From Chryseobacterium sp. CY350 (GTDB lineage Bacteria > Bacteroidota > Bacteroidia > Flavobacteriales > Weeksellaceae): a stretch of DNA of 64,000 nucleotides. The DNA lies in the NCBI RefSeq assembly GCF_027945075.1, contig NZ_CP116034.1, positions 868,001 through 932,000 on the forward strand, given 5' to 3'. Positions 6,285 through 9,751 of this stretch are shown here, piece by piece. The notes below the pieces were generated by a model. That model had not been told where the DNA came from. It did no database searches and saw only the letters and a list, made by a program, of their open reading frames with translations. Numbering within the stretch: position 1 is the stretch's first letter; the number at the start of each line of letters is the position of its first letter. The translations under genes were made by a program, and so were the position numbers.

Positions 6285-7775
6285 TTACAAGGTGTCTCTG
6301 TTTTTAATCATGTTTACTTTCAGAAAACGTATCAATACCAATCCTGCAGCGAAGAAAACAGTCATAGAAAGAGCAGCATAACGCATATTATTAAACTGAT
6401 CAATAAGTGTTGCGAAGATGAATGTACCTACAATGATCGCCAATTTTTCCAGTACATCATAGAAACTGAAGTAGGTTGTGTTCTCCATAGAATTTTCCGG
6501 AAGAAGTTTTGAGTATGTAGATCTCGACATCGCCTGAAGACCGCCCATTACCAAACCTACAACTGCAGCTACACCATAAAACTGATACTCTACATTAGGA
6601 TTTTCTTTATTCAGAAAATAAGCCCAGATACAGGCAACGATCCATAATACGATTGCAATTGAAATAACGTTTTTATTCCCTATTTTTCTTGAAAGTCTTG
6701 AGAATAAAATAGCTCCGATAATCGCTTCTATCTGGATGATTAATAGTGTGCCGATCAGCTTATCCTGTGCAAGGTTGATTTCGCTTTTTCCAAATAATGT
6801 TGCCATCAGGAATATAGTCTGCATGCCTACACTGTAAAAGAAAAAACTTGACAAGAAATATTTTAGATTTTTATCTTTAAACAATTCATTCCCCACTTTG
6901 AAAAGTTCGTTGAAGCTTTCCTTGGCAACGTCTTTATAGAAGCTTATATTGTCTTTCAGAACTCCAAAGAAACCACCTTGCTCTTCGTGTCTTTTAAAGA
7001 TATTTTTATAATTTAATAAAACAAGATCTTTCGGAAGCTTTTCTTTAACGTCCCCAAACTGAGGCAAATGTTTGAAAGTATATTGTGAGAAACCGAACCA
7101 CCAAGCTCCGGTTAAGAGAAAAGTAATTCTTGTAAAAATCAGTTTCTGCTCTTCTCCTTTTGCTAAAAACATAATTAAAACCAGACAAAGAACCACCAAA
7201 ACTACAGAACCTATATATCCATAAACATATCCTTTTGCAGAAAGCGCATCCTGTTTGTCTCTCGTCGCAATATCCGGAAGAAATGAATTATAAAATACGA
7301 GACTTCCCCAGAAACCGACACTGGCGGTAATGCTGAAAAGCAGTCCCAGAAAAACATTGTGCATACCGGTAAACATTGCCAATCCCATACAAGAGGTAGC
7401 ACCAAGGTAACAGAAAAACTGTAAAAAAGATTTCTTATTCCCTATCGTATCTGCTAACGACGATAAAAATGGTGATAGCAACACGACGATGAAAAATGAT
7501 ATTGTGAGCGAATATCCGTAGACCGCATCCGGCTGATATTCTTTTCCGAAAATTCTGATGAGATGCCTTACGGGTACATCAATATATTTCCCGGTTGCCG
7601 CAACATATTCTTTCTGCTCAAATTTTGTAGTGATGATAGAATAATAGATGGGAAATATGGTAGACGTGATTACCAGAGAATACACCGAGTTTGCCCAGTC
7701 GTACACTGCCCAGGCTTTCATGATCTTCGGATTGTTCTTGATATTATTTGTGGTTTGAATTTCTGTTTCAGACAT
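6285..7775 (-). CDS. UMF1/Atg22-like MFS transporter
   Basis: 496-residue polytopic membrane protein with about twelve hydrophobic segments. The N-terminal WAVYDWANSVYSLVI motif is characteristic of the UMF1 (Atg22-like) branch of the major facilitator superfamily, and GLVMGGLQAMSRSTYSKLLP is typical of the second half. The substrate is unknown; yeast Atg22 exports amino acids from the vacuole, but this does not transfer safely. The ATG at 7775 is favoured over a GTG at 7796, because a TATTTTTG element lies just upstream and gives a leader of about 16 nt. It is a single gene, separated from the GHMP kinase by about 60 bp. Confidence 0.85.
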   Translation of the reverse strand: MSETEIQTTNNIKNNPKIMKAWAVYDWANSVYSLVITSTIFPIYYSIITTKFEQKEYVAATGKYIDVPVRHLIRIFGKEYQPDAVYGYSLTISFFIVVLLSPFLSSLADTIGNKKSFLQFFCYLGATSCMGLAMFTGMHNVFLGLLFSITASVGFWGSLVFYNSFLPDIATRDKQDALSAKGYVYGYIGSVVLVVLCLVLIMFLAKGEEQKLIFTRITFLLTGAWWFGFSQYTFKHLPQFGDVKEKLPKDLVLLNYKNIFKRHEEQGGFFGVLKDNISFYKDVAKESFNELFKVGNELFKDKNLKYFLSSFFFYSVGMQTIFLMATLFGKSEINLAQDKLIGTLLIIQIEAIIGAILFSRLSRKIGNKNVISIAIVLWIVACIWAYFLNKENPNVEYQFYGVAAVVGLVMGGLQAMSRSTYSKLLPENSMENTTYFSFYDVLEKLAIIVGTFIFATLIDQFNNMRYAALSMTVFFAAGLVLIRFLKVNMIKNRDTL

Positions 7776-7952
7776 TTTCAATCGAATTAGTTGCACAAAA
7801 ATAGAAAAACCGCTGAATGTTCGGTCGTTTTTTGTTTTTTATTTTTACTATTTAGCTAAGAATTAATAATGAGAATTATTTTTCATTCCAAATTTTCATT
7901 TTACAACAGGTCTGGTTATAAGATAAATCGGCCACAGTTTCGGGTTTTCTCC

Positions 7953-8172
7953 GTCGGAACTTCCGACGAGCATTCCTAATTCGGGTTTGCCCTGTCGGAA
8001 GTTCCGAAAGCTTCCCCTGGTTTTGGTTCTCTCCGTCGGAACTTCCGACAGCCTTTCCTAAAGTGGATTCATGTCGTCGGAAGTTCCGACGGCGTCCCCG
8101 GAAGTGGATTCGGGTCGTCGGAACTTCCGACGGTCTTATCCTTTTTGGGTTTCGATTGTCGGGACTTCCGCT
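7953..8172. repeat. Six-unit tandem array of 15-bp palindromes, exact 41-bp period
   Basis: Palindromic cores GTCGGAA(C/G)TTCCGAC start at 7953, 7994, 8035, 8076, 8117 and 8158, exactly 41 bp apart. The central base alternates C, G, C, G, C, C; core 2 ends in A instead of C, and core 6 is degenerate (GTCGGGACTTCCGCT). The 26-bp intervals are related to each other, sharing pieces such as AAGTGGATTC in intervals 3 and 4, so this is a diverged tandem repeat with a strongly conserved core. It is visibly GC-richer than its flanks. 41 is not a multiple of three and there is no ORF, so it is not coding. Confidence 0.9.
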
Positions 8173-8305: not shown

Positions 8306-8337
8306 AAAAGCCAAAAACACGGATGCTTTTGGCTTTT
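8306..8337 (-). terminator. Intrinsic terminator
   Basis: AAAAGCCAAAA pairs with TTTTGGCTTTT around a short loop. On the minus strand it runs into T8, just after the stop of the 69-residue membrane protein gene. Confidence 0.85.
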
Positions 8338-8356
8338 AAATTTATTGTAAGTGGTT

Positions 8357-8566
8357 CTATTTATTTAAAAAATCTTTAAATCTACGATTCGTCACAAGTT
8401 TAAAAATAATTAACAGAATTCCTAAACATTGGATAACAGTACCTATCGTCAAGCAAATATTACCATTAATGGCCCTAAGTGAAATATGGGTAATTTTCAG
8501 CCAGGCTCCGAATAAATTGATTAAGAAACCTGCTAAAAAAATCATGATGGCATATTTTGCTTTCAT
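8357..8566 (-). CDS. Small two-TM membrane protein (unknown)
   Basis: 69-residue protein with two hydrophobic helices (about 5-24 and 36-57) and a short basic tail (KLVTNRRFKDFLNK). The GFLINLFGAWLKI segment loosely resembles the N-terminal transmembrane part of GldL-like proteins, but this is too short for a functional claim. It starts 6 bp after the thiolase stop and has a terminator right behind it, so it is the last gene of the thiolase transcript. No function is recognised. Confidence 0.65.
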   Translation of the reverse strand: MKAKYAIMIFLAGFLINLFGAWLKITHISLRAINGNICLTIGTVIQCLGILLIIFKLVTNRRFKDFLNK

Positions 8567-8572
8567 ACGATC

Positions 8573-9751
8573 TTACATATTTTCGATAACAATAGCCGAA
8601 GCTCCACCACCACCGTTACAGATAGCTGCAGCACCGTATTTACCGTTATTTTGCTTCAAAACGTTAATCAAAGTAACAATAATTCTAGAACCTGAACTTC
8701 CCAGCGGATGTCCCAAAGCTACCGCTCCACCATTTACGTTTACTTTAGCAGCATCCAATCCTAAGATTTTATTGTTTGCCAAACCAACGACAGAAAACGC
8801 TTCATTAAACTCGAAGAAATCAATATCAGTAAGTTCTAATCCCGCCTTTTTAAGAGCAATCGGTAGAGCTTTTGAAGGTGCCGTTGTAAAGTTTTCCGGC
8901 TCCTGAGCAGCATCAGCATAAGATATTATCTTTGCTAAAGGTTTCAACCCTAATTCTTCCATTTTCTCTTTAGAAACCAGAATTAAAGCAGAAGCACCGT
9001 CATTTAAAGTTGATGCATTGGCTGCAGTAACGGTTCCGTCTTCTTTTTTGAAAACTGTAGGAAGTGTAGGAAGTCTGTCAAAATTAACAGCTTTGTACTC
9101 TTCGTCTTCAGCAAATATAATTGGGTCTCCTTTTCTCTGAGGAATTGATACAGGAACTACTTCTTCAGCGAATTTCCCTTCGCTCCATGCATTTGCAGAT
9201 CTTTTGTAAGATTGTGTTGCAAAATTATCCTGATCTTCTCTTGAAAAACCATAGTCTGCCGCACACTTTTCTGCGCAAACTCCCATGTGAACTTTATTGT
9301 AAACGTCTGTAAGACCGTCTAAAACCATTCCGTCCTGCATTTTTACATCACCTAATTTGGTAGCGTTTCTTGCATTATAATAATGAGGAACTGCAGACAT
9401 ATTTTCCATACCTCCTGCAACGATAACGTCTGCATCACCCGCTTTGATCGCCTGTGCAGCCATTGTCACCGCTTTCATTCCTGAAGCGCAAACTTTATTG
9501 ATTGTAGTAGACGGAGTTTCATTTGAAAGTCCCGCGCCTAATGCCACCTGACGTGCCGGAGCCTGCCCTTCACCAGCCTGTAAAACGTTACCCATATAAA
9601 TTTCCTGAACGTTTTTAGGATCAAGATTAATTTTGTCTAAGGCTCCTTTTACTGCCGTTGCTCCCAATTTTGTAGCAGGAACTGTAGATAAGCTTCCCAT
9701 AAAACTCCCGATCGGTGTTCTTACTGCGGAAACAATGAATACTTCTTTCAT
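8573..9751 (-). CDS. Acetyl-CoA C-acyltransferase (thiolase)
   Basis: 392-residue type II thiolase. The acyl-accepting Cys88 is in INKVCASGMKAV, NEAF lies before the catalytic His348 in GHPLGSSGSR, and Cys378 is in CNGGGGAS. It condenses two acetyl-CoA to acetoacetyl-CoA or runs the reverse cleavage. Length and motifs match biosynthetic thiolases of the AtoB/PhaA type. In this organism it could supply the first step of the mevalonate pathway, whose kinase lies about 2.4 kb away, or act in fatty acid or ketone degradation. No 3-hydroxyacyl-CoA dehydrogenase partner is adjacent. Confidence 0.93.
   Translation of the reverse strand: MKEVFIVSAVRTPIGSFMGSLSTVPATKLGATAVKGALDKINLDPKNVQEIYMGNVLQAGEGQAPARQVALGAGLSNETPSTTINKVCASGMKAVTMAAQAIKAGDADVIVAGGMENMSAVPHYYNARNATKLGDVKMQDGMVLDGLTDVYNKVHMGVCAEKCAADYGFSREDQDNFATQSYKRSANAWSEGKFAEEVVPVSIPQRKGDPIIFAEDEEYKAVNFDRLPTLPTVFKKEDGTVTAANASTLNDGASALILVSKEKMEELGLKPLAKIISYADAAQEPENFTTAPSKALPIALKKAGLELTDIDFFEFNEAFSVVGLANNKILGLDAAKVNVNGGAVALGHPLGSSGSRIIVTLINVLKQNNGKYGAAAICNGGGGASAIVIENM

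Follow-up and report, generated by a model that had tools for sequence, protein, structure and literature searches.

What might a row of short palindromes at an exact period be doing in a non-coding gap of a bacterial chromosome, and what could recognise it? The array that raises this question lies in 64,000 nucleotides of Chryseobacterium sp. CY350, the whole of which we refer to as the window, between an MFS-type gene and a thiolase gene, each on the minus strand. The features of the locus are listed below, with the cores as obtained in the core scan; "linked" denotes arrays next to a gene of the Pfam family DUF6261, and "stand-alone" those without.

7927-8172, plus strand (orientation toward DUF6261, as in linked arrays): stand-alone array of six 41-bp units, preceded by a degenerate interval
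7953-7967, no strand: core 1, GTCGGAACTTCCGAC, perfect
7994-8008, no strand: core 2, one mismatch
8035-8049, no strand: core 3, perfect
8076-8090, no strand: core 4, centre G, perfect
8117-8131, no strand: core 5, perfect
8158-8172, no strand: core 6, three mismatches, degenerate end unit
6285-7796, minus strand: flanking gene of the major facilitator family (Pfam ATG22 and MFS_1 matches), its 5' side toward the array
8307-8340, no strand: terminator-like inverted repeat between the array and the gene at 8357-8566, flagged as a hairpin with a T-run
8573-9751, minus strand: flanking gene for an acetyl-CoA acyltransferase (thiolase), the marker of the syntenic locus in our comparisons

A sequence-only reading of this locus had described six cores at an exact 41-bp period, and indeed the 15-bp palindromes start at 7953, 7994, 8035, 8076, 8117 and 8158, a step of exactly 41 bp, with perfect GTCGGAASTTCCGAC in four of the six but one mismatch in core 2 and three in core 6. 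At three mismatches or fewer the window holds eight core matches, compared to a mean of 0.43 in 100 dinucleotide shuffles (sd 0.73, largest 4). The lag-41 self-match of the array tile reached a z of 16.9 among 177 tiles of 360 bp; four other window tiles exceed z 4, at lags 51, 33, 35 and 36. Congruent with the earlier description of the array as non-coding and richer in GC than its flanks, no ORF of at least 60 aa in the ORF list of the window covers it, and its GC content is 0.54-0.56 as compared to 0.21-0.26 outside. Rfam yielded no match over the gathering score in the window. The 26-bp intervals, neighbouring or not, share 8-18 of 26 bases pairwise in one orientation versus 4-10 with reverse complements, and are thus mutually related in a single orientation, as had been proposed. 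The alternating central base is on the other hand a feature of this array (C/G/C/G/C/C) rather than a rule of the class: it is not kept in the second (G/G/C/T/G) and third arrays of the same genome, nor in the orthologue in genome G151 (G/T/T/G/G).

Recurrence of the array in the genome and the genus

Beyond the window array, the core and its 41-bp period recur in two more arrays of the same genome, in 16 of 173 same-genus genomes matched at E <1e-6 by R1, a covariance model of one core, interval and next core, and in syntenic arrays of three other species. This is neither the absence from relatives nor the random duplication devoid of phase that the sequence-only reading had named as grounds against itself, and the search it proposed for the repeat elsewhere in the genome (a single contig of 4.09 Mb) was productive. 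The second array, linked and with the same core as the window array (G000:C1:574716-574894), consists of five units with exact cores and a step of exactly 41 bp, and its near end is separated from the start of the DUF6261 ORF by 42 bp. A looser search recovered the third, at 2629574-2629752, whose core middles vary yet stay symmetric, with the general form GTCGGRNNNYCCGAC. In total, 15 sites lie within one mismatch of GTCGGANNNTCCGAC in the 4.09 Mb.

The distribution across the genus is patchy. Of 148 same-genus genomes searched for exact cores, 7 have them, and a three-unit pattern matches 8 of 173; relaxing R1 to E 0.001 brings its matches to 66 of 173, many of the weaker ones being single 24.9-bit matches that were left out of the count. 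Both flanks of the window array match the flanks of arrays in G151, G169 and G040, each of which carries its own DUF6261-linked array of the same core type; the G169 copy (G169_b) is reduced to two units. Between the window array and its G151 counterpart, identity is 90% in the core arms and 59% in the intervals, and the blastn matches of the flanks at the locus are at 84% and 78%; the values for core arms and intervals of an orthologous pair at mutL are 90% and 63%, with exact 41-bp spacing in both pairs. The core arms and the spacing are kept while the intervals drift. The mutL pair (L018 and L140) is a stand-alone array shared by two species upstream of a mutL-like gene, which we take to be such from its start. 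Shared syntenic positions of stand-alone arrays comprise the MFS locus (four species), mutL (two), truA (five) and a further locus (three). At the window locus, two core-like sites 39-44 bp apart were found in none of 17 same-genus genomes (G001-G017), so the window array too is patchy, and no clean insertion boundary was seen. The MFS-thiolase gap of L080, L139 and L147 holds other palindromes, of the CTCCTACGGAG type, beside or replacing the array, and the otherwise array-free gap of G011 has a lone core-like palindrome, GACGCAACTTGCGAC (three mismatches, L079:2225).

Association of the arrays with DUF6261

In 12 of 38 loci, counting arrays together with weaker R1 matches, a gene of one family adjoins the array, which lies upstream of its start. 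The family is DUF6261 (PF19775), a Pfam family of unknown function, present in 79 of 173 same-genus genomes and in 12 of 395 sampled across the phylum. We divided the same-genus proteins by sequence into subfamilies I, II and III (labels of this analysis), and scored upstream regions for the best 80-base self-match at lags 25-60 against dinucleotide-preserving shuffles. With near-duplicates and regions below 180 bp dropped, 61 of 85 distinct DUF6261 upstream regions gave z>4 at lag 40-43 (24 fail the z>4 test), versus none of 410 control tiles drawn from the window, its array left out, and from flanks; four control tiles exceed z 4 at any lag. The best lag is 41 or 42 in 77 of the 85 regions versus 32 of the 410 tiles, which strengthens the earlier argument that 41 bp is close to four helical turns. 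By group, z>4 was reached in 19/29 (subfamily I), 20/22 (II) and 15/23 (III), and elsewhere in 5/5 Streptococcus, 1/3 Capnocytophaga, 1/1 Taibaiella and 0/2 other regions.

The pairing extends past the genus. Outside it, 5 of 11 loci of the phylum sample show z>4 at 41-42 under mononucleotide shuffles; five of the other six fail and L277 is unscored. A scan of GTDB genomes for subfamily I returned 27 loci, mostly from Chryseobacterium and also from Kaistella, Frigoriflavimonas, Capnocytophaga, Taibaiella and five Streptococcus records, with 22 passing z>4 at lag 41 or 42 (mononucleotide shuffles). All five Streptococcus loci carry an array, with z from 15.1 to 25.5 at lag 41; their cores (e.g. 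GTCGCTCGGAGCGAC) are unlike those of Chryseobacterium, but the layout of GTC-core-GAC and a 26-bp interval is the same. We are highly confident that the pairing of DUF6261 with a 41-42 bp palindrome array is real and functional.

Several loci deserve separate mention. The DUF6261 readings of L259, L261 and L267 are broken by stops or frame changes, and intact relatives exist. In L202, L224 and L226 the 42-bp array is open in one frame and adds 14-aa repeats, probably not translated, to the upstream end of the mechanically called DUF6261 ORF. L304 (MT837725.1), a faecal scaffold of 6318 bp labelled Bacteriophage sp. and putatively a phage, encodes a DUF6261-like protein (24% identity), preceded by a lag-41 repeat (z 9.1, mononucleotide shuffle).

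The core palindrome varies by lineage with matched changes on both arms, and the period stays at 41-42 bp. For 27 arrays of subfamily I and relatives, each represented by one consensus core in the phase giving the best palindrome, 79.6% of core-arm pairs are Watson-Crick versus 41.4% with partners shuffled among arrays, a level reached in 0 of 2000 shuffles; at pair 4-12 all 27 arrays are Watson-Crick, and each of the four pair types occurs there. When the null, more strictly, was also allowed its best phase, the pairs observed out of six were 5.3 vs 4.3 for subfamily I, 5.05 vs 4.3 for II and 5.5 vs 4.4 for III, with p <=0.05 in 19 of 62 single arrays. The class is thus clearly symmetric, and many arrays taken one by one are weakly so.

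The window array belongs here as a stand-alone case, tblastn with DUF6261 proteins revealing no such gene inside the window. It has the period, the palindromic core and the shared core type of the DUF6261-associated arrays and lacks their direct adjacency to the gene. The core type of a stand-alone array tends to be that of the linked array in the genome concerned. Stand-alone arrays of the window type occur in eight of nine genomes whose linked array is of this type versus 5 of 164 others, namely G075, G135, G142, G064 and G154 (Fisher p 7e-10), and those of a second core type (CCCAANTTGGG, two-unit pattern in 7 of 173 genomes) in three of five versus 2 of 168 (Fisher p 1e-4); these matches were counted by hand and both tests ignore shared descent.

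Literature searches, mostly without subscription papers, recovered no account of DUF6261 arrays, nor of these arrays under their core sequence or under Chryseobacterium palindromic repeats; DUF6261/PF19775 was found in one paper only, where the part consulted gives it as a row in a list of Streptococcus oralis mutations (PMC10376253).

Possible roles of the array

The association of DUF6261 with the arrays is strong, and from it we infer binding and purpose. The chances are about even that the array is helically phased DNA which the resident DUF6261 recognises, both beside its own gene and at further places on the chromosome, and whether DUF6261 itself is what binds the array DNA appears similarly balanced. 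The window array would then represent, in stand-alone form, a class of phased palindrome arrays of 41-42 bp period with DUF6261 as the usual partner, and would work as DNA. A period of four helical turns would set every dyad on one face of the helix, where DUF6261, predicted to be all-helical, may bind neighbouring units next to one another, perhaps joined by an HTH protein at loci that encode one. Through the upstream array the protein could regulate its own gene, and it could also occupy extra chromosomal arrays, such as that of the window. Counting against this explanation, the window array and the other stand-alone arrays have no DUF6261 gene beside them, and five genomes have stand-alone arrays of the window type but no linked one of that type. 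The 24 upstream regions below the z threshold, the many arrays whose palindromes are weak when taken singly and the 17 genomes that lack the array at this locus also weigh against it, as does the lack of a significant fold match for DUF6261. The earlier suggestion of a phased, non-random binding or structural array is in any case supported, being favoured by the comparative evidence.

An AlphaFold2 model of C. edaphi DUF6261 is all helical (mean pLDDT 90.6, pTM 0.63), fold searches with it gave no significant structural match, and in Pfam scans DUF6261 was the sole match of the partner protein over the cut-off, with no recognisable transposase family. An HTH gene lies just upstream in 5/24 subfamily I, 14/23 subfamily II and 0/22 subfamily III loci (two-sequence profile, 1.3 kb searched); the two loci checked by Pfam encode HTH_3/HTH_19 proteins. 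As the HTH gene varies among subfamilies, DUF6261 and the array form the constant part.

Would the array rather act as RNA? Its units could be transcribed and DUF6261 bind the hairpins or processed units, as a leader regulator or in the manner of a TIGR-like guide RNA, which we regard as rather unlikely. TAnnTTTG is a flavobacterial-type promoter-like element. Judged by motif matches, 18 of 27 subfamily I rows have it 35-75 bp ahead of the array (four matches and five rows being loci fetched twice), and a sigma-70-like pattern precedes the array in two of five Streptococcus loci; the array would there fall in the leader of the gene. In subfamily III, however, 10 of 15 have the element between array and gene, at -40 to -55 relative to the latter, so the array is not always in a leader. 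The full TTG-spacer-TAnnTTTG pattern precedes the array in 1 of 27 (I) and follows it in 7 of 15 (III). Stem mismatches show no excess of G-T over A-C (32 vs 48; by arrays 17 vs 26), hence no G-U tolerance on the sense strand. Together, promoter-like positions and stem mismatches favour a DNA role over an RNA one. The stand-alone arrays lack a common promoter or terminator side (terminator-like sites downstream in 13/25, on the opposite side in 12/25), only six of 25 have TAnnTTTG within 170 bp upstream, four of these being one orthologous locus, and RNAalifold found no pairs in the A1 alignment. An array by one small protein gene, with a core constant within and different between loci, is reminiscent of TIGR arrays as described (PMC12045711), but hypervariable spacers were not seen.

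That DUF6261 mobilises the arrays, as RAYT is thought to mobilise REPs, with stand-alone arrays as the copies, we consider unlikely. Such copying would fit the patchy distribution, with DUF6261 in 79 of 173 same-genus genomes, its occurrence with an array in Streptococcus, and the core type that stand-alone arrays share with linked ones. The stand-alone arrays nevertheless occupy shared syntenic positions in several species, thus recent movement is not seen; the window locus shows no clean insertion boundary, DUF6261 matches no recognisable transposase family, and copies per genome are few.

It is more doubtful still that the array is an operator of an upstream XRE/HTH repressor, with DUF6261 merely the regulated gene. 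The HTH_3/HTH_19 genes of the two Pfam-checked loci, and the HTH counts in subfamilies I (5/24) and II (14/23), agree with such an arrangement, yet 19 of 24 subfamily I loci have no HTH gene within 1.3 kb and subfamily III has none in 22, many of them carrying arrays nonetheless, and the window array has no HTH gene beside it. Neutral local tandem duplication without function, finally, is hardly credible: some arrays are degenerate (G169_b, with two units) and the window array is absent from 17 of 17 other genomes, but exact spacing and core arms are kept across species while intervals diverge, the period is confined to 41-42 across unrelated sequences, and the arms covary.

Comparison with known systems and meaning

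Iteron and centromere-type arrays consist of tandem sites at multiples of the helical turn, by the gene of the binding protein. The present arrays may be likened to them as tandem helical-turn sites next to the gene of a proposed binding protein, but are chromosomal, with no replication or partition gene beside those examined, and DUF6261, by contrast, has no known DNA-binding fold. CRISPR arrays combine regular palindromic repeats, a likeness to the present arrays, with unique spacers; the intervals of the window array are instead related, 8-18 of 26 bases being identical.

REP/BIME elements with RAYT (REPtrons), as far as the cited descriptions go, share with the arrays the clustering of short intergenic palindromes and their spread away from a presumed protein partner, and BIMEs have alternating orientation (PMC2817692, PMC3733652). 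The partner there is a Y1 transposase and here DUF6261, with few arrays per genome and a strict period of 41-42 bp. The window core is absent from all 35 Y1_Tnp loci (L043-L077), of which L059, in a genome with such arrays, holds a somewhat similar ATCGGAT..ATCCGAT, and 15 sites in 4.09 Mb compare to the more than 100 copies per genome of REP/RAYT. CGTC overlaps the core of several array units; the published CGTC REP families are described with an unpaired tag, AT-starting stems of 8-9 bp and loops of 4-5 bases, unlike the array units (PMC3733652). The same 35 loci, from nine same-genus genomes, have at least two short palindromes of their own within 350-bp flanks in 21 cases, and many of their IS200-like TnpA genes are flanked in this manner; Bacteroidetes subclass 1.2 is, in the portion cited, generally without such flanking palindromes (PMC6006769).

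TIGR-Tas, in the part of its description cited, is similar in that an array lies by one small protein gene, in the two alternating repeat elements per unit, seen in part of the DUF6261-class arrays, and in sequences constant within and different between loci; it differs in its 36-nt unit and 9-nt variable spacers, as opposed to 41-42 bp, and its protein is of the Nop-domain kind (PMC12045711), where the arrays have DUF6261, a protein for which Pfam gave no second match and the fold searches no significant one. Units of about 36 nt with 9-nt variable spacers were not found, the units here being 41-42 bp and similar within an array.

DUF6261 and its array point to an undescribed protein-plus-DNA-array module. 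Tentatively, the two could form a one-protein module, complete in itself, that has passed between Bacteroidota and Firmicutes; DNA recognition by the protein and the core would co-diversify within it while the four-turn layout stays fixed, and it would spread or maintain further arrays on the host chromosome. If the module reading is true, this would be a protein-array system of a new kind, serving regulation, chromosome marking, defence or self-propagation. For a Pfam family whose function is unknown, the association opens a first route to one, tying DUF6261 to a cis element recognisable by its period even where the sequence is unrelated. The natural pairs of protein and core sequence offer a test of how recognition specificity diversifies, and the mutL, truA and MFS sites mark places at which a common trans-acting factor may be active.
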